Below are positions 17,002 to 34,767 of a stretch of DNA of 40,556 nucleotides, one piece after another (position 1 is the stretch's first letter; each line of letters opens with the position of its first letter). The position numbers were made by a program, and so were the translations under genes. Source of the DNA: Candidatus Colivicinus equi. GTDB taxonomy: Bacteria > Bacillota_I > Bacilli_A > Erysipelotrichales > Erysipelotrichaceae. Location of the stretch: assembly GCA_018064825.1 (NCBI GenBank), contig JAGHUL010000069.1, positions 1 through 40,556 on the forward strand, given 5' to 3'. The notes beneath the pieces were generated by a model that saw only the letters and a program-made list of their open reading frames with translations, searched no databases and was not told where the DNA came from.

Positions 17002-18408
17002 TTATTTCTTACTTACATCAAATAAGAAAGAAACAGCTTTTCTCTTCTCTTCGTAGAAATACATACCAAAAGCTTGAAGCACAATAAAGAATACCAAGTA
17101 GTATAAAATTTGATAGCCATAAGTGTAGTATGCACAATAACACATAAATAGTGAAGAAATAATAGCTAATATAGGAAGAACAAAACGATTCAAGAAATTG
17201 AAACTCTTTTCTTTTAATATAATGTGCACAAAGATAGGAATATATAATGCATACAAAGTAATAATGCATATTTCATCAGCTTCCCAAGCGAATAACCATT
17301 CAGGATTATGTGTGCCATTAAAAGCTAATGGGCCTTGGAAGAATAATGTTGAAATTTGGAATAACCAGAAGCCCATCATGCCTATACCGATGATACAAGA
17401 CTTTAATGGCATACCTGTAATTTCATCGACATCCGCAACAGCTCTAGGATTAATGCCCTTTCCTCTAATAGCCAAAGAATAGAAGCCTCTCATAGTAGAC
17501 ATCGTCATGCCATTAGCTGTGCCTAAACAAGAAATAACGATGATAGATAAAATAAGATTTCCTGCAACATTGCCAAAAATATTTGTGAAAGCAATCTTAG
17601 GAAGACTATCACCTGCCGCAATAATCTCTTCTGGAGATAAAGTAGCACTCATTGAATAAACATAAAGCATATATATGAAAGTACAGAAAATTCCACCAAT
17701 AGTTAAAGCTAAAGGAAGATCTCTTTTTGGATTTCTTAGTTCTTGATTAATTGATGAAGCTGAAATCCAACCTTCATAAGCAAACGCAAATGCACATACA
17801 CCTGCTAGTAATCCATTATCTGTTGCGCCTTTTATAGAAGGCATTTCAAATACGGCAACACCATTACCATTGATTAAACCGACGATGCATCCAATAACAC
17901 CCATTAAAATAATTGGTGTAAGTTTAACAACCGTCGTTGCGACTTGGAATTTACCTGCAAGTTTAGGGGCCAACATATTCATGACGATTAAACCAAACAT
18001 GAACAAAATAGAAATACCAGTATTAGCTTGTCCATACATTTCTATACCAAGCATCATGCAGAAATAAGATGCACCAATATAAGATAATGTTGCAGCAATT
18101 ACTGGATTATATATTGTTGAAGTAAAGAAGCCTACAAAATAGGCATATTTAGAACCACATGAAACTTCGGCATAGTCAACTAAACCATTACATGTAGAAT
18201 AATGTCTACCCATTTGCGCAAAGACATTTGAACAAACAATACAAATCATTCCGACAATACCGATGATAAGTAAAGATTGTCCCATATTGCCATTTGTCAA
18301 ACTAAGTACCTTTACGGCTTTAAAAAAGATACCTGAACCAATGACGATTCCCATAACCATTGATAAGGCTGTAGGAAGTCCATATTTTTTCTCTAACTGT
18401 TTCCCCAT
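17002..18408 (-). CDS. APC-family amino acid permease
   Basis: A 468-aa membrane transporter of the amino acid-polyamine-organocation superfamily with about twelve hydrophobic spans. The unwound TM1 signature is present as SMVMGIVIGSGIFFK (16-30), and the TM6 equivalent as GVCAFAFAYEGWISASSINQEL, followed by RNPKRDLPLAL. It is most like the LAT/SteT-type exchangers. The substrate cannot be assigned from sequence. It stands alone, convergent with the NADAR operon (stop codons 11 nt apart) with no clear terminator between them. AGGGG precedes the ATG. Confidence 0.9.
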   Translation of the reverse strand: MGKQLEKKYGLPTALSMVMGIVIGSGIFFKAVKVLSLTNGNMGQSLLIIGIVGMICIVCSNVFAQMGRHYSTCNGLVDYAEVSCGSKYAYFVGFFTSTIYNPVIAATLSYIGASYFCMMLGIEMYGQANTGISILFMFGLIVMNMLAPKLAGKFQVATTVVKLTPIILMGVIGCIVGLINGNGVAVFEMPSIKGATDNGLLAGVCAFAFAYEGWISASSINQELRNPKRDLPLALTIGGIFCTFIYMLYVYSMSATLSPEEIIAAGDSLPKIAFTNIFGNVAGNLILSIIVISCLGTANGMTMSTMRGFYSLAIRGKGINPRAVADVDEITGMPLKSCIIGIGMMGFWLFQISTLFFQGPLAFNGTHNPEWLFAWEADEICIITLYALYIPIFVHIILKEKSFNFLNRFVLPILAIISSLFMCYCAYYTYGYQILYYLVFFIVLQAFGMYFYEEKRKAVSFLFDVSKK

Positions 18409-18527: not shown

Positions 18528-18857
18528 TTAGTTTTTCAATATTACTTCTAAATACTTTCTTAATTCTTGGACACTATTCTTTGCTGTATTCCAAACAATT
18601 TCAAAATTAATGGTTCCGTAGCCGATATCTCGCATTCCTTTAATCTGTTTCCACGGCTGTTTATTATTTTCCATAATAAAATCATCTGACAACCCTTTGG
18701 CAAGTTCACCTATTTGAAATATGTTGAAACACACCATTTCTCTTATACCTAAGTCATTATCAAATTCTTCTTTTGAAATATTACTGACAATATCTTCTAT
18801 TCTCGTACAATGAGATATAATCTGTAAAACTCTACCTTTATCTTTCACTTCTAACAT
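18528..18857 (-). CDS. hepT: HepT-like (DUF86) protein with a broken RX4HXY motif
   Basis: HepT toxins are four-helix HEPN RNases whose catalytic motif is R-X4-6-H-X-Y; the partner MNT protein disarms them by AMPylating the Tyr. The 109-aa protein fits the family in length and layout: GIREMVCFNIFQIGELAKGL in the middle and WKQIKGMRDIGYG, then NFEIVWNT, near the end. Where relatives have R-x-x-x-x-H-x-Y, this one reads R-D-I-G-Y: three residues, including the catalytic His, are gone while Arg and Tyr remain. The frame is intact, as after a 9-nt deletion. The start overlaps the MNT gene by 7 nt. Confidence 0.85.
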   Translation of the reverse strand: MLEVKDKGRVLQIISHCTRIEDIVSNISKEEFDNDLGIREMVCFNIFQIGELAKGLSDDFIMENNKQPWKQIKGMRDIGYGTINFEIVWNTAKNSVQELRKYLEVILKN

Positions 18858-19312
18858 AAGTTAATCATATCCTCCATAATCTGCTCCTTGAAAAAATCGT
18901 TCATTTCGGATGAGCTTAATACCAAATCAACTTTTTTATTTAATGCGCCTTCTAATTCATCAATTAACTGACCTTGTTCAATTAAATCCTTTATTTTTCC
19001 TTTGTCACAATAAATATCAATATCGCTATCAGCGCTTGCTTCACCCCTTGCATAAGAACCAAACAGATTGATGTCTTTTATTCCGTATTTATGTAGAATT
19101 GGTTTAATTACGCTTTTTATTTGTTTTAATGATAATACATTTATCTTTTCTCTATTTTCGATTAAAGAAACGATATATTTGTTCTTATTAGATTTATTAT
19201 CTAGTATATCAACTATTGGGCTATCTTTTTTAACTCTAAATTGATACATCTTGTAATTGTTCTTGTTGTATTCTGCGACATATTCTTTTTGATCAAATTT
19301 TTTGTTTTTCAT
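18851..19312 (-). CDS. mntA: MNT-type nucleotidyltransferase antitoxin with an N-terminal DNA-binding-like domain
   Basis: The C-terminal part (about 62-153) is a minimal nucleotidyltransferase with GSYARGEASADSDID, i.e. the GSX10DXD motif, and the third Asp in KKVDLV. Such MntA proteins AMPylate the paired HepT. The first 60 residues are extra: a strand-like YQFRVKKDS, then PIVDILDNKSNK and YIVSLIENREK. This strand-helix-turn-helix order resembles a ribbon-helix-helix repressor (inference). I chose the ATG at 19312 because the predicted -10 box ends at 19319, leaving the ATG at 19318 outside any transcript from that promoter. No Shine-Dalgarno is present. Confidence 0.85.
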   Translation of the reverse strand: MKNKKFDQKEYVAEYNKNNYKMYQFRVKKDSPIVDILDNKSNKNKYIVSLIENREKINVLSLKQIKSVIKPILHKYGIKDINLFGSYARGEASADSDIDIYCDKGKIKDLIEQGQLIDELEGALNKKVDLVLSSSEMNDFFKEQIMEDMINLC

Positions 19313-19334
19313 ATACATATGATATCATATGTAT
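19313..19334. promoter_or_regulatory. Perfect 22-bp palindrome, candidate operator of the toxin-antitoxin pair
   Basis: Positions 19313-19334 form a perfect 22-bp palindrome (half site ATACATATGAT). It contains the whole -10 box and ends next to the start codon, so a bound dimer would block transcription. Palindromic operators at the start are typical for self-regulating toxin-antitoxin pairs. Confidence 0.6.
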
Positions 19335-19407: not shown

Positions 19408-20463
19408 TTATTTATTCTTAACTTTTACCCAAAGTTCTGACATTATTCTTAGAGTTTCTTCGTTATTATGGAATGACTCATCATTTGCGTTTTTCTCTCT
19501 AGGAATATAAGCTTCATTTCCATCGAAATCACAATCAGGCAAAACAATGTCACGTAACACTTCAGCATTTACTGAAGCATAACCAACATATGAACTGTTA
19601 TCATATGCGGCATCATAATCAGTAATATAATTCATGAAAGTATAAGCGTTATCTACATTCTTAGCACCAACTTGTAGGCACATTGCATCAACCCAATAGT
19701 TTGTGCCTGATTCAGGTGCAAAATAACGCATATCTTCATTTTCACTTAAGATGTATGCGGCATCACCAGAATACATAATGCCCATAGCTTTTTCACCATA
19801 CGCCAAACCATCAATGCATTCATCTGCAGCGTATGCAGGTTTCATAGTATCGGCAATATTGCATAACCAATCAAAGACATCATATAATTCTTCTTCAGAT
19901 TCAGCATTCATTGAATAGCCTAATTGTTTTTCACCAATCATGAATATATCTCTGATTGAATCATACATGTAAATCATGCCTTTATATTTAGGATTAGCTA
20001 AGACGTTCCAACCTTGAGACTCAACATCATTTTCATCGACTAATGTTGAATCATATACAATACCAACATTGCCCCAAAAGTAAGGAACAGAGTAATCATT
20101 GTTTGGATCATAGTCCATATTTCTAACGCCATCATATAAATAATCTAGACATGTTAATTTTGACTTATCTAACTTTTGAATAATTTTCTCATCAATAAGT
20201 CTTTCTATCATATAGTCACTAGGAATAACGATATCAAATTTTGTGCCACTTAATAATTTGGTATACATTGATTCATTTGATTCAAAAACAGTTAGATTAA
20301 CTTTGATACCAGTTTCATATTCAAACTGTTCAACAACTTCTTCACTAATATATTCGCCTGGAATAAAAATGTTAAGTTCGCCATTTTCAAAATTATTGTT
20401 AAAACAACCAGTTAAAGAAAAACAGATACACAAAGAAATTAATATATTAAAAAACTTGTTCAT
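19408..20463 (-). CDS. potD: Spermidine/putrescine ABC transporter, substrate-binding lipoprotein
   Basis: PotD captures polyamine outside the membrane and delivers it to PotBC. The 351-aa protein has a lipoprotein signal peptide with lipobox LTGC (Cys20 lipidated) and a periplasmic-binding type 2 fold (LNIFIPGEYISEEVVEQFE, DIVIPSDYMIERL, VPYFWGNVGIVYD, ANPKYKGMIYMYDS). The aspartates and aromatic residues common in polyamine pockets are present (for example YFWGN and the acidic residues nearby), but the ligand is not proven. It is the last gene of potABCD; its start lies 17 nt inside potC. Confidence 0.92.
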   Translation of the reverse strand: MNKFFNILISLCICFSLTGCFNNNFENGELNIFIPGEYISEEVVEQFEYETGIKVNLTVFESNESMYTKLLSGTKFDIVIPSDYMIERLIDEKIIQKLDKSKLTCLDYLYDGVRNMDYDPNNDYSVPYFWGNVGIVYDSTLVDENDVESQGWNVLANPKYKGMIYMYDSIRDIFMIGEKQLGYSMNAESEEELYDVFDWLCNIADTMKPAYAADECIDGLAYGEKAMGIMYSGDAAYILSENEDMRYFAPESGTNYWVDAMCLQVGAKNVDNAYTFMNYITDYDAAYDNSSYVGYASVNAEVLRDIVLPDCDFDGNEAYIPREKNANDESFHNNEETLRIMSELWVKVKNK

Positions 20464-21253
20464 GATGGTGATGTCTCTCCTTTCTTTGTTTTAACATTGG
20501 TGCAAAATTTACGATAATCAAAACTAGTGTAACTGCTAAAACAATAAGTGTACTTAATGAGTTAATACTAGGATTGATACGTTTACTTGTCGAATAAACA
20601 TAAGTAGAAATATTATTGATTCCAGGTCCGGTTGTAAAATAAGAAATTACGAAGTCATCAAATGACATTGTAAAAGCTACTAAAGCACCAGATATAATAC
20701 CTTCCTTGATTTGTGGAATAATAACTTTCGTCAAAGCTTGAAATGGCGTACAACCTAAATCTAGAGCGGCTTCTGCGATATTATCATCAAGCTGTCTAAG
20801 TTTTGGATTGATTGAAAGCATAACATAAGGGATACAGAAAACAATATGAGCTACTAGCAATGTTCCAAAGCCTGTAGGAATCTGTAAGGTCGTAAAGAAT
20901 AACATTAAACCAATTGCTGTAACGATATCAGGATTCAACATTGGTAAATTATTTACTTGTGTAACAATCTCTTTGATAACACGATTAGATTTGCTTAAAC
21001 CAATTGAAGCAATCGTGCCAACAATAGTTGAAATAACTGTCGCAAGAATAGCTATCAATAATGAATAATAAACTGATTCCATCATTGATCTAGATTTAAA
21101 CATCTTCTCATACCATCTCAAAGAAAAACCGGTAAAGCTTGTAAGCGAACGAGATTCATTGAATGAGAAAAATACAACATAAATAATTGGCAAATAGAAG
21201 AACAAGATGATTAAAGCTAAATAAAGCTTTTTGAAATTAAATTTCTTTTTCAT
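20447..21253 (-). CDS. potC: Polyamine ABC transporter permease
   Basis: A 268-aa permease with six membrane spans and the cytoplasmic EAA loop (EAALDLGCTPFQALTKVIIPQI) that contacts PotA. It is the PotC member of the PotB/PotC heterodimer. The start overlaps the potB stop by one base and the end overlaps potD. The C-terminus is a short His-rich tail (RKERHHHHEQVF). Confidence 0.94.
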   Translation of the reverse strand: MKKKFNFKKLYLALIILFFYLPIIYVVFFSFNESRSLTSFTGFSLRWYEKMFKSRSMMESVYYSLLIAILATVISTIVGTIASIGLSKSNRVIKEIVTQVNNLPMLNPDIVTAIGLMLFFTTLQIPTGFGTLLVAHIVFCIPYVMLSINPKLRQLDDNIAEAALDLGCTPFQALTKVIIPQIKEGIISGALVAFTMSFDDFVISYFTTGPGINNISTYVYSTSKRINPSINSLSTLIVLAVTLVLIIVNFAPMLKQRKERHHHHEQVF

Positions 21254-22032
21254 TATCTAGCCTCCTTGTCATAATCGAACTTTCTTGTAAAGTACATGCT
21301 GATCAAAATAACGATTGTCATCACCAAACTTACAGCTGCACCAAAGTTCCAGTCACCAGTTGTGACAAAATAATTTTCGATTAAGTTACCAACTAAAACG
21401 AAAGATCCTCCACCTAATAATTTAGGAATAAAGAAACTACTTACGGCAGGTAAGAAAACTAAAGTGATACCCGAAATAATACCAGGAACAGATAAAGGAA
21501 GTGTAACCTTTAAGAAAGCAGTTTTCTTATCACAACCTAAATCATATGCGGCATTAATTAATGAAGTATCTAACTTAGATAAAGAAGTATAGATTTGTAA
21601 AATCATAAATGGTAAGAAATTATATACCATACCGATATATACTTTTAATTCTGCGGAGAAGTCAGTATTCAACAAGATACCTCTCCATGCATATGTTCTA
21701 ACCAACATATTTATGAATTGTGGAGCTGTCATCAATAAAACTAATACAGCTTGTTTGTTGAAATCTGCTTGGGCAATAAAATAAGCAGCAGGATAACCAA
21801 TCAAGATACAAATAACTGTTGTAACTAAAGCTAAAATAACACTTCTTAATAAAACGTTTAGGAAAATAGGGTCTTGGAAAAACCTGATGAAATTATTTAA
21901 AGAAACTTTAACTTGAATTAGGTCATTGCCCTCTGTTGTGAATGCATAAAAAATCATTATCAACATTGGGATAACAATCAACATTAAAGCCCATATCATG
22001 TATGGGTATATTAATCGTCTAAAGCCTTTCAC
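21253..22032 (-). CDS. potB: Polyamine ABC transporter permease
   Basis: A 259-aa permease with six spans and an EAA-like loop ([22 protein letters not shown]). It pairs with PotC. Its ATG overlaps the potA stop by four bases (ATGA), so it is translationally coupled. Confidence 0.94.
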
Positions 22033-23600
22033 GCTATCATTTTCTCCATTACATGAATATCATCAGGATCAAAATCGATTGAAACAATATCACCCTCATT
22101 TTGTTTTTCCGTAGTATGAATCTTATATGTTCTACCTTCTGTAACGAATGTTACATCGTAGATGCCTTCTTTTATTTCCATTGGATCGAAATCAAATCTA
22201 ACGTCATCAATCTTAACTTCGTTTTCTGTTTCCAAATCCCAAGCATAAGCATCAGCCCAGTTTCTTAGGTCGACAGAAATAGCCATTGACTCTTTGATTT
22301 CATCGATACTCTTATATACATCAAATGCTTGAATACCAATCTTTTCTTCACTATCTTCATTTACTTTTGGTTGAACAACTTCAACGTTTATTTTGATGCA
22401 TGTTCCTTTTGCGGTTTTAAAAGTAATTTGATAGTTGCCTGCTTTATCAACGATGTTGTGTTCAACTTCGTTAATCGCAATTTCTTCTTCACTATCAGCA
22501 TCCCAAGCTTGCGCATTTGAACGTAAGATTAAATCTTGATCGCTGATTGATTCAACGTCTTCGATATCCATCTTGAAATCAGATGCAGACATCTTTTCAT
22601 TTGCTTCTTTATTGAATACGTCTTGGTCTCCTAAGACGTGTAATTTAATACTTTTTGCCGCACCACGTTTAGTCTCAACAATTACTTCGTAGTGAACACC
22701 CTTGAATAGACAAGACATGATTTGACCATTCATCTTTCCTTTAGATTTCTTTTTGATTTCAATATCTTCAGGTCTGATGATTATATCAACTGGTTGATTC
22801 TTTTTAAAATCATAATCAACGCATTCAAAGTCTTTGCCATCAAAGTTTACTTTGTAATCTTCGACCATTGTGCCATCAATAATATTTGATTGGCCAACGA
22901 ATGTTGCGACATATTTATTTACTGGTTCATTATATATTTCTGTTGGTGTACCGATTTGTTCGATATTGCCTTCTTTCATAACTACAATCTTGTCTGACAT
23001 TGTCAAAGCTTCTTCTTGATCATGAGTTACAAAAATGAAAGTGATACCAACTTCTTGTTGGATACGTTTTAATTCTTGTTGCATCTCTTTTCTTAGTTTT
23101 GCATCTAAGGCAGATAATGGTTCGTCTAGCAACAATACATCTGGTTCATTAACTAATGCTCTAGCTATGGCAACACGTTGTTGTTGACCACCAGATAATA
23201 GAGTTACATCACGATCTTCAAAACCAGCTAGACCAACAAGTTCTAACATTCTTGTTACTTTTGGTTCAATTAGTTCTTTATCCATCTTTTTAATCTTTAA
23301 ACCAAAAGCAATATTTTCATAAACATTTAAATGAGGAAATAAAGCATATTTCTGGAAGACTGTGTTAATTGGTCGTTTATATGCAGGGACATCAGAAATC
23401 TCTTCGCCATTAAAGACGACAGATCCTTCATCTTGTTCCAAGAAACCTCCTAAGATTCTTAATAAAGTTGTTTTACCACAACCTGATGGGCCTAGTAATG
23501 TTACGAATTCATTTTCATAGATATCAAGATTGATACCTTTCAATACTACTTGTCCACCGAACTTCTTTACGATGTTACGAAATTCAATTAACTTCTTCAT
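22029..23600 (-). CDS. potA: Polyamine ABC transporter ATPase with an enlarged, repeat-containing TOBE region
   Basis: PotA powers polyamine uptake. In the 523-aa protein the ATPase domain is complete: Walker [10 protein letters not shown] (37-45), Q-loop, signature LSGGQQQR (135-142), Walker B LLLDE (156-160), H-loop His193. The C-terminal TOBE region begins near 240 (IIRPEDIEI at 274-282) and ends with the usual [16 protein letters not shown] (503-518). Between these halves, about 316-498, is an insertion of two similar segments (336-408 and 420-497). Each has an AWD motif ([10 protein letters not shown] / [10 protein letters not shown]) and a strand pair ([17 protein letters not shown] / [17 protein letters not shown]). 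Family members are usually 350-380 aa. I place the start at 23600 (MKKLIEFRN) after AAAGGGG; an ATG 11 codons earlier has no ribosome site. Confidence 0.93.
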
Positions 23601-23870
23601 GTTTTTCCCCTTTCTAAACAAAAAGACAGGCATTTATTCTGCCTGTCTAAAATTACTCGAGCACCCTTAACAGAACGCTACTTATTGACCATTTTATAAG
23701 GCATCATAAACACTTTACAAAACTGAGCTTTTAACTCAATCAATAAGGTAATCAAATTACCTTCCGTATTCCCCAAATACGGTTCCAGTCTCTTCGCCTG
23801 GTTTTCGGCATTTGACCCGGCCGTCCGTGTAGCCTTAGCCAAGATTGGCGGTCATTCTGTACATAGTACT
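23601..23870 (-). promoter_or_regulatory. Structured potABCD leader: candidate OFF riboswitch/attenuator
   Basis: About 270 nt of RNA precede potA. A long-range stem pairs ACAGAA (23860-23855) with TTCTGT (23675-23670) and TGACC (23854-23850) with GGTCA (23690-23686), with a 10-nt bulge on the 3' side. A second GGTCA (23817-23813) competes for TGACC. Enclosed hairpins are GCCA/TGGC (23849-23838), CCAG/CTGG (23801-23785), CCGTATT/AATACGG (23782-23764), AAGGTAAT/ATTACCTT (23763-23745) and TGAG/CTCA (23738-23724). Downstream, 23703-23691 pairs with 23653-23640 (5 + 6 bp), which uses the left arm of the terminator and so acts as antiterminator. I could not match it to a known riboswitch core. Confidence 0.65.
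23620..23648 (-). terminator. Intrinsic terminator immediately upstream of potA
   Basis: A perfect 9-bp stem (AGACAGGCA / TGCCTGTCT) with loop GAATAAA is followed by TTTTT on the minus strand, ending 20 nt before the potA start. Placed between a promoter and the first gene, it is an attenuator rather than an end-of-operon terminator. Confidence 0.88.
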
Positions 23871-23876
23871 GAATTA

Positions 23877-23905
23877 ATTATTCTATAATTTATTTTAAAA
23901 TACAA
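23877..23905 (-). promoter_or_regulatory. Probable promoter of potABCD
   Basis: TTGTAT (23905-23900), 17-bp spacer, AATAAT (23882-23877), giving a start near 23870, at the 5' edge of the folded leader. The surrounding DNA is very AT-rich, so other -10 choices (TATAGA at 23887-23882) are possible. Confidence 0.5.
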
Positions 23906-23975
23906 TATTTTTTTAGCAATTTTTTAGCAAACTTTTTCTAGGGCATTTGCCAAAAAATATGATTAATCATTTTCG

Positions 23976-24944
23976 TTATTCAAAAGGATATTTTAATCCC
24001 CAAATATTTCTAATATTATCAGCGATTTCTAGAAGTTTAATTGACTCATTTAAAGGCATAGAAATTGATTCTATTCTTCCTTCTTCTAGACATTTTTTAC
24101 ATTCTAAGAATTCATATTCATAGCCACTTATCTGTTCTGGAATTATAACTTCTTTAACTAATTTATCCTCACAATTGAATACCTTTATTGAATTAGGATT
24201 ATTGATATTTTCTATGACGATATAACCTTTATCTCCATATATTATTCCTTTACGATCACTTCTTGAATATAGGCCATGAGTCAAACTAGCCATACGTCCA
24301 TCTTTATAGAATAGAGTGATAGTCTCCATTCCATCGACATTTGTATCAGTCATTTTTACTGATGTTTCAATTCTTTCGATGTCATCACCAAAATGCATCA
24401 AAGCAAAATTTAAGCCATAGACACCAACATCTAATAAGGCACCTCCGGCAAGATTAGGATTAATAAGACGATCTATCTGATATATAACATATGATAAATT
24501 ACCAGTTAAGATATTAGGTTTACCAATAATGCTGCTACTGATAACATCGTCAATTAGTTTTCTAGATGGCATATATCTAGGCCATAATGCCTCAGATACA
24601 AAGACATTATTCTTTTTTGAAAGTTCATATATTTCTTTTGCTTGTTTAGCATTTACGCAGAATGCTTTTTCGCATAGTACTGGTTTACGGTTTTCGATGC
24701 ATAATTTCATGCAGTCAAAATGTGTACTATGTGGTGTTGCCACATAGACTAATTCCACATTAGGATCTTTAACTAATTCAACATAAGATCCATATGCTTT
24801 TTCATAATTATATTTTTCTTTGAACTCATTTGCTTTAACAATATTTCTTGATGCTACAGCATAACATTCTGCTTCAGCCATTCTATTAAAAGTATTTGAT
24901 AATGTTGAAGCTATTGAACCTGTTCCTAATACACCTATTTTCAT
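23976..24944 (-). CDS. Gfo/Idh/MocA-family NAD(P)-dependent oxidoreductase
   Basis: The 322-aa protein has an N-terminal Rossmann domain (KIGVLGTGSIAST, GxGxxA at 7-12; VYVATPHSTH at 71-80; the conserved EK as VLCEKAF) and the C-terminal dehydrogenase domain with GGALLDVGVYGLNFA. Family members oxidise or reduce sugars, inositols or dihydrodiols; the substrate here is unknown. It begins after AAGGAG, 69 nt past rpoC and just beyond a hairpin terminator, so it may depend on read-through. A weak hairpin (ATGATTAATCAT then TTTTTT) follows its stop. Confidence 0.9.
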   Translation of the reverse strand: MKIGVLGTGSIASTLSNTFNRMAEAECYAVASRNIVKANEFKEKYNYEKAYGSYVELVKDPNVELVYVATPHSTHFDCMKLCIENRKPVLCEKAFCVNAKQAKEIYELSKKNNVFVSEALWPRYMPSRKLIDDVISSSIIGKPNILTGNLSYVIYQIDRLINPNLAGGALLDVGVYGLNFALMHFGDDIERIETSVKMTDTNVDGMETITLFYKDGRMASLTHGLYSRSDRKGIIYGDKGYIVIENINNPNSIKVFNCEDKLVKEVIIPEQISGYEYEFLECKKCLEEGRIESISMPLNESIKLLEIADNIRNIWGLKYPFE

Positions 24945-34613: not shown

Positions 34614-34737
34614 CCAATATACTCATAAAAATAGAAAACCTGCGCCCATAGACGCAGGTAAAAATCATAATTGATTAACCTCGGTAACATTATTAAGCAT
34701 ATAGCCGTTACTGTCTATGGTATATCGATGCTTAATA
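34614..34737 (-). promoter_or_regulatory. L10-type ribosomal leader (attenuator)
   Basis: The 5' leader opens with a perfect 12-bp stem (34739-34728 with 34700-34689), whose apical part holds ACCATAGACAGTAACGG, followed by GTTACCGAGGT and the terminator. This layout, with CCATAGAC able to pair with the terminator, matches the known L10 leader of Firmicutes. There, the L10(L12)n complex binds the leader and favours the terminator, setting rplJL and rpoBC levels. Confidence 0.8.
34635..34659 (-). terminator. Attenuator terminator in the rplJ leader
   Basis: ACCTGCG-TCTATGGG-CGCAGGT (7-bp stem) followed by TTTTCTATTTTT lies 40 nt before rplJ on the minus strand. Its loop and arm sequence GTCTATGG (34653-34646) is exactly complementary to CCATAGAC upstream (34720-34713), the antiterminator pairing. 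Confidence 0.85.
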
Positions 34738-34767
34738 ATTGTATCGTAAAAGGCTATTCTTATTCAA
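34738..34767 (-). promoter_or_regulatory. Promoter of rplJL-rsmC-rpoBC
   Basis: TTGAAT (34767-34762), 18-bp spacer, TACAAT (34743-34738). Transcription would start around 34731, at the beginning of the leader's long stem. Confidence 0.75.

Follow-up and report, generated by a model that had tools for sequence, protein, structure and literature searches.

A conserved attenuator RNA ahead of polyamine genes in Bacillota, a candidate polyamine riboswitch with a core catalogued as RF02440

The potA leader and its match in Rfam

The window, a 40,556-nt stretch of DNA from Candidatus Colivicinus equi analyzed here as a whole, carries a long conserved leader ahead of pot genes, which raises the question of what this RNA is and which signal it might read. 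The leader, on the minus strand, is flanked by the end (23976) of an ORF that we take to be oxidoreductase-like and by potA (22029..23600, minus strand), which matches NF043075 at 553.7 bits (cut-off 550) and likely starts at the ATG at 23600, behind AGAAAGGGGA. The genes after the leader are ordered potA, potB, potC, and potD, all on the minus strand. For the potB-like (21253..22032) and potC-like (20447..21253) permeases, polyamine permeases are the best matches, and for the potD-like binding lipoprotein (19408..20463), PotD is the best match, all three under the curated cut-offs. The window PotA (22029-23600) has 523 amino acids, and its C-terminal part outruns the 341-378 positions of PotA-type models. 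Downstream of the pot genes, an APC-family amino-acid/polyamine-type permease, below cut-offs, lies at 17002-18408, and two adjoining small ORFs at 18528-19318 look like a HEPN (DUF86) and MNT nucleotidyltransferase pair.

An earlier note, made from the letters of this DNA, had described the leader as an unrecognised, riboswitch-like attenuator behind a promoter. The leader folds strongly for its composition (-82.9 vs -62.2 +/- 4.5 kcal/mol for shuffles; z -4.65, with 0 of 200 shuffles as good). The promoter was not borne out, as the site TTGCTA-16-TAAAAT (23892..23919, minus strand) is a weak consensus match with 9 of 12 positions, and such matches in the region are not above chance (4 found, 5.2 expected).

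The same note had found no match to known RNA families. However, an all-Rfam search, which it had proposed as a check, returned RF02440 (SpF59_sRNA, ldcC RNA) over 23805..23854 of the minus strand at 60.8 bits, above the cut-off of 37.2. Rfam types this streptococcal model, 54 positions long, as an sRNA gene. What it matches is just the 5′ portion of a larger domain, which by comparison with relatives measures 175 nt in the window. The description as unrecognised was thus half right: the first 50 nt were already filed as an sRNA, whereas, among the matches listed, open-licence papers (preprints lay outside the scope) neither described RF02440 as a riboswitch nor treated the whole element. Nor did open-licence papers reveal where the name "ldcC RNA" in Rfam comes from. 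The whole element is new, while its core is already catalogued.

No other Rfam family exceeded its cut-off in the window leader. Similarly, a scan of 20 related loci placed RF02440 over the cut-off in all 20 and otherwise returned one tRNA only. The SAM-I model gave no match in 23400-24100 and the T-box model none in the leader region, each at E values up to 10, and a SAM-II match at 23937-23903 lay far under its cut-off (20.3 vs 44 bits).

Architecture and covariation of the conserved domain

The whole conserved domain occupies 23680..23854 of the minus strand, on which all leader features below also lie, and it scores 112.4 bits (E 1.3e-28) against model R1, built here from 35 seeds of which the window is one. 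The closing helix P1 joins the 5′ strand ACAGAA (23855..23860) to the 3′ strand TTCTGT (23670..23675). In P2, TGACC (23850..23854) pairs with the nearby GGTCA at 23817-23813 (23813..23817), and the P3 hairpin GCCAATCTTGGC follows at 23838..23849. P2a (23819..23834) consists of GGC at 23834-23832 with GCC at 23821-23819 and an inward T.G pair. A pseudoknot is formed by CGG (23825..23827) with CCG at 23808-23806 (23806..23808). Further along, two extra hairpins (CCAG/CTGG and CCGTATT/AATACGG; 23764..23801) are predicted from the sequence and occur in close relatives too. The remaining elements are the P4 hairpin GGTAATTTGATTACC (23747..23761), the P5 5′ strand TTATTGAT (23739..23746), the P6 hairpin TGAGTTAAAAGCTCAG (23723..23738), the P7 3′ strand TGCCTTATAAAAT, which is also the 5′ strand of the antiterminator (23691..23703), and the P5 3′ strand GGTCAATAA (23682..23690).

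The earlier note had closed the domain with ACAGAA/TTCTGT plus TGACC and a distal GGTCA. The first part stands, since ACAGAA/TTCTGT (23860-23855 with 23675-23670) recurs in relatives with other letters. The second part is rejected: the distal GGTCA pairs with the outermost TGACC base in 62% of leaders, vs 94% of 129 for the nearby GGTCA, and A persists at the distal position in 36 of the 37 leaders that carry CGACC/GGTCG. Instead, the distal GGTCAATAA partners TTATTGAT in P5, where 99.3% of cells are paired. Plain energy folding favours the TGACC/distal GGTCA pairing, and simple minimum-free-energy folding is therefore a misleading guide here, as it prefers a helix that covariation rejects.

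The leader alignment holds 141 leaders, or 130 once near-identical ones are removed. Over 129 leaders, the outer pair of P2 reads TA in 75, CG in 37, GC in 5, and TG in 4 (94% paired; UA/CG/GC in the RNA), and the outermost TGACC base shows 42 both-side changes with the nearby GGTCA. The strongest covariation in the family belongs to P3, with 12 to 59 both-side changes for each pair. All leaders counted (130/130) keep the CGG/CCG pseudoknot paired, with one CG to TA double change. The pair beside P2a (alignment columns 58-67) is C.A in 116 and T.G in 13 of 129 leaders, and the window carries T.G at 23831 and 23822, where most relatives have C.A. The exchange of C.A for T.G is an isosteric wobble exchange.

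Across 35 diverse leaders, 93.8% of the cells of the named structure are paired, vs 87.9% after shuffling, and both-side changes affect 18 pairs and 103 cells, vs 10.4 and 31.2 (0 of 500 shuffles reach these values), although kinship among the sequences alone can exceed such shuffles. When the partners were slid by 1-3 columns, 26-46% of cells were paired and 14-40 showed both-side changes. These 35 were taken from 45 diverse leaders, and the percentages lean to canonical members because ten short or divergent leaders were left out (L008, L009, L013, L014, L056, L073, L080, L084, L087, and L147). In a stricter tree-based test on 130 leaders, with a null in which columns evolve independently on the tree, only four pairs passed E < 0.05; P3 supplied three of them and P2 the fourth. 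The test has weak power here because conservation leaves most of the core no room for variation.

The weakest helix is P9 (75%). Past the modelled part, most relatives carry a P10 hairpin, AGAGT/ACTCT, paired at 88-95% per pair, with the P1 3′ strand in its loop; the window is without P10.

Among the 35 diverse leaders, 32 bases are invariant and about 30 more are nearly so. This bears on the idea that attenuation works through an RNA-binding protein that reads polyamine status, since such an indirect route is compatible with the sequence. However, so many fixed bases together with a pseudoknot better fit a self-contained aptamer, and we consider the protein route improbable.

Terminator and competing antiterminator

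In agreement with the earlier note, an intrinsic terminator is present; it has a 9-bp stem followed by the U-tract TTTTTGTTT, at 23648-23624 (23624..23648, minus strand), and by our count lies 23 nt ahead of the likely potA ATG. No other site in 23200-24400 resembles a terminator (0.3 expected). The antiterminator of that note, TGCCT/AGGCA plus TAAAAT/ATTTTA (23703-23691 with 23653-23640), is also present, its 3′ strand being ATTTTAGACAGGCA (23640..23653, minus strand), and an equivalent pairing recurs in the family. Furthermore, the proposed exclusion of the closed domain and the antiterminator agrees with the layout: the antiterminator loop encloses the 3′ strands of both P1 and P5, and P7 and the antiterminator share one strand.

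To compare relatives, we used P5 as an anchor, which could be placed in 134 of 142 leaders. Of the 134 anchored leaders, 115 carry a terminator under -8 kcal/mol downstream, vs 12 of 134 in a control of one dinucleotide-preserving shuffle per stretch. Relative to the codon that aligns with the start of a reference protein, 110 of the 115 terminators end before it, one overlaps it by 6 nt, and four have no ORF. With the start of the longest ORF as reference, the split is 56 before and 55 after, since this start is the earliest codon that could serve.

The P7 3′ strand was tested as the 24 nt before the 3′ strand of P5 (consensus ACUUGUGAAA). With the left arm of its own terminator, it pairs at a mean of -13.80 kcal/mol, compared with -11.02 for permuted arms (sd 0.22; lowest of 5000, -11.73) and -7.30 for shuffled arms. 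Permutation within gene class, a guard against clade composition, gave -11.33 (lowest of 3000, -12.07). Similarly, over 131 leaders, the P1 duplexes with own partners average -13.07 kcal/mol, vs -9.53 when permuted and -10.73 when permuted within gene class. Strong in the potA and speD classes and in the remaining ones, the P7-arm signal nearly vanishes in the CASDH class, where terminator arms are nearly alike and own pairings hardly beat those with others (arms, -13.16 vs -12.89; P1, -15.09 vs -14.80). The own-sequence signal therefore comes from the non-CASDH classes. The median rank of the own arm is only 29 of 115; for the window, the rank is 3rd among 115 arms and 2nd among 131 P1 partners. 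Two further counts add little because permuted pairs come close and shuffled arms also reach high values: the own duplex falls on the P7 strand in 114 of 115 leaders (permuted 104, shuffled arms 87) and buries at least five arm bases in 113 of 115 (permuted 107, shuffled arms 74).

For the window, the computed energies are -78.6 for the closed domain with terminator, -74.7 for the antiterminator, and -82.9 unconstrained, values that leave out the pseudoknot and any ligand. At the level of sequence, complementarity together with the shuffled and permuted controls points to an expression platform with mutually exclusive states. We regard the leader as a real, conserved cis-attenuator with very high confidence.

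The mechanism that we propose starts from this competition. With ligand bound, the domain would be kept closed by P1, P5, and P7; P7 would occupy the 5′ strand of the antiterminator, the terminator would form, and transcription of potABCD would stop. When no ligand is bound, the P7 3′ strand (ATGCCTTATAAAAT in the window) would pair with the terminator left arm, and RNA polymerase would read through.

Attenuation by a leader peptide on which ribosomes stall would offer another route to the same switch, and an ATG does occur at a conserved ATGCCG in 104 of 129 leaders. This ATG is lost in the other 25, and the readings that follow range from 3 to 100 codons; the leader peptide was rejected and is scarcely credible.

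Distribution, downstream genes, and the candidate ligand

RNAs of the RF02440 type are patchily distributed. Counting the query genome in each tally, RF02440 matched in the genome of the window (1/1), in 21 of 195 genomes of its family, in 36 of 315 of its order, in 4 of 392 of a phylum sample, and in 11 of 299 of the phylum of a clostridial genome. Scanning an 84,980-species collection by pattern returned at least 120 stretches, at least one of them by chance. Among the matches listed are Paenibacillus, Bacillus, Neobacillus, Lederbergia, Cohnella, Lactococcus, Oscillospiraceae, Lachnospiraceae, Ruminococcus, Acetobacterium, and Holdemania, as well as single draft genomes labelled Synergistaceae, Spirochaetes, and Brachyspira; by its surroundings, a Micromonospora match (L091) looks like chance. 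Model R1 matches 6 of 36 genomes of the genus. One same-genus genome holds divergent copies found by R1 and missed by RF02440 (L181, L182, and L183), two of them near contig ends, and in this genome of the window's genus a C26 gamma-glutamyl-hydrolase-like protein follows the RNA at L181:1747-2565.

For the downstream genes, 153 of 154 loci entered the count (L020 ends at a contig end), and 12 of them were without a downstream ORF on the fetched stretch, leaving 141. Dropping the Micromonospora match L091 and the loci L025, L035, L039, and L117, which share contigs with other loci, left 136 distinct loci. The first downstream gene serves polyamine synthesis or uptake in 122 of these 136, a raw share by BLAST grouping: potA in 49, speD in 32, carboxynorspermidine-synthase-like in 32, Orn/Lys/Arg decarboxylase in 6, potD in 2, and nspC in 1. 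Because the loci were collected by RNA sequence alone, this association is not circular. A conserved structured domain in the 5′ leaders of metabolically related genes, as expected of a riboswitch, is thus what these loci present. The clusters were named by BLAST grouping with profile scans of samples. In the naming check, 9 of 9 sampled proteins of the potA group exceeded the NF043075 cut-off, as did one SpeD and one NspC their own; the carboxynorspermidine-synthase, decarboxylase, and PotD group names are best matches under curated cut-offs.

The other 14 loci comprise eight C39-like and five M28-like putative secreted peptidase lipoproteins and one Lnt-like (acyltransferase-like) protein under the cut-off. 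The C39 group was found at L005, L009, L014, L015, L017, L018, L019, and L021, and the M28 group at L004, L008, L045, L066, and L107, with one protein scanned in each. Putative secreted hydrolases downstream of the RNA may free polyamines from conjugates. In clostridial L036 and L041, the RNA heads a speD-decarboxylase-speE-speB-CASDH-like row, with nspC in addition at L036 (named by eye), and one Lactococcus genome carries two copies, before potA and before a decarboxylase.

This gene association also bears on the reading of RF02440 as a trans-acting small RNA, as the Rfam type and the pneumococcal literature class it. To judge from its name, RF02440 derives from pneumococcal F59. F59 (srn235) is listed among the S. 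pneumoniae sRNAs as an RNA of 82 nt between SP0915 and SP0916 on the SP0916 strand, and a second table gives srn235/F59 coordinates that span 327 nt. According to PMC7531197, SP_0916 is an arginine decarboxylase, and a term-seq study reports 141 putative regulators, of which F59 may be one (PMC6296669). The window matches the model, and F59 (srn235, SN20) itself precedes the arginine decarboxylase gene SP0916 on the same strand, as a cis-acting leader would. However, the model is a 54-nt sRNA, whereas the element here is about 120-200 nt with a terminator and stands before several kinds of polyamine gene. An RNA that acts in trans would not be expected upstream of one pathway at so many loci with terminators behind it, and a terminated leader would itself show up as an sRNA, which makes the trans-acting reading very unlikely.

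The earlier note had guessed an OFF switch that responds to a polyamine or related ligand. The terminators, the own-arm pairing, the covariation, and the polyamine loci all agree with this proposal, from which we infer small-molecule binding, polyamine identity, and the OFF sign. Polyamines are abundant and strong RNA binders. That a single OFF-type architecture stands before genes of both synthesis and uptake suggests an end product as ligand, and spermidine or a close analogue would be the most economical choice. In the window's own genome, a 96% complete draft, no match was found to either SpeD type, spermidine synthase, or NspC, with models that matched in control genomes, nor to the Paenibacillus CASDH-like protein, in a search that had no positive control. 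With these proteins unmatched, uptake by PotABCD may be the polyamine supply.

The same attenuator could instead sense another metabolite of the pathway, such as decarboxylated SAM, MTA, agmatine, putrescine, cadaverine, or a carboxy-polyamine, given that the speD, decarboxylase, and carboxynorspermidine-synthase-like genes have several intermediates in common. In contrast, the potA and potD loci (51 of 136) and the unmatched synthesis proteins of the window's genome point to an imported polyamine, and decarboxylated SAM and MTA are unsuited to an importer. Putrescine is a possible ligand; as a whole, we consider this alternative unlikely, though the least so of those weighed here. Judged from sequence patterns, the potA leader would be a member of a large cis-regulatory RNA class across Bacillota and is probably a polyamine riboswitch, with a conserved domain that would bind most likely spermidine or a close analogue and a transcriptional OFF action.

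A spermidine riboswitch has been described as a rare SAM-I variant with a consensus from 13 representatives (Salvail et al. 2023, PMC10853860). That paper judges earlier polyamine riboswitch claims unconvincing and expects further classes. Like the RNA proposed here, it is a termination OFF switch with a polyamine ligand (in our case a putative one), and it precedes ldcC, speE, and speB. In contrast to that SAM-I RNA, the window leader has no SAM-I match, and its pattern returned at least 120 stretches (one or more by chance) against those 13 representatives. According to Naville and Gautheret (2010, PMC2965389), the Pasteurellaceae ABC-leader likewise places a premature terminator before potABCD; it belongs to Haemophilus somnus and Pasteurella multocida and was set beside the window by description only. 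The potE and odc1 motifs are also RNA motifs near polyamine genes, although they come from Veillonella and alpha-proteobacteria and were set apart by their descriptions only (Brewer et al. 2021, PMC8632094).

We lean slightly toward a widespread, structurally new, pseudoknotted polyamine riboswitch class of up to about 200 nt, filed so far only as a 54-nt streptococcal sRNA. It would be a main regulator of how many Bacillota make and import polyamines, and would act on secreted hydrolases possibly freeing conjugated polyamines as well. If so, it would be a far commoner polyamine riboswitch class, unlike the SAM-I variant in sequence and architecture; an entry in the pneumococcal sRNA list would become a cis-regulator, and the way in which gut and soil Bacillota keep polyamine levels would be explained. 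Test constructs of the RNA family are obtainable from several genera. Elsewhere in the window, a ribosomal protein L10 leader (RF00557) lies at 34623-34738.
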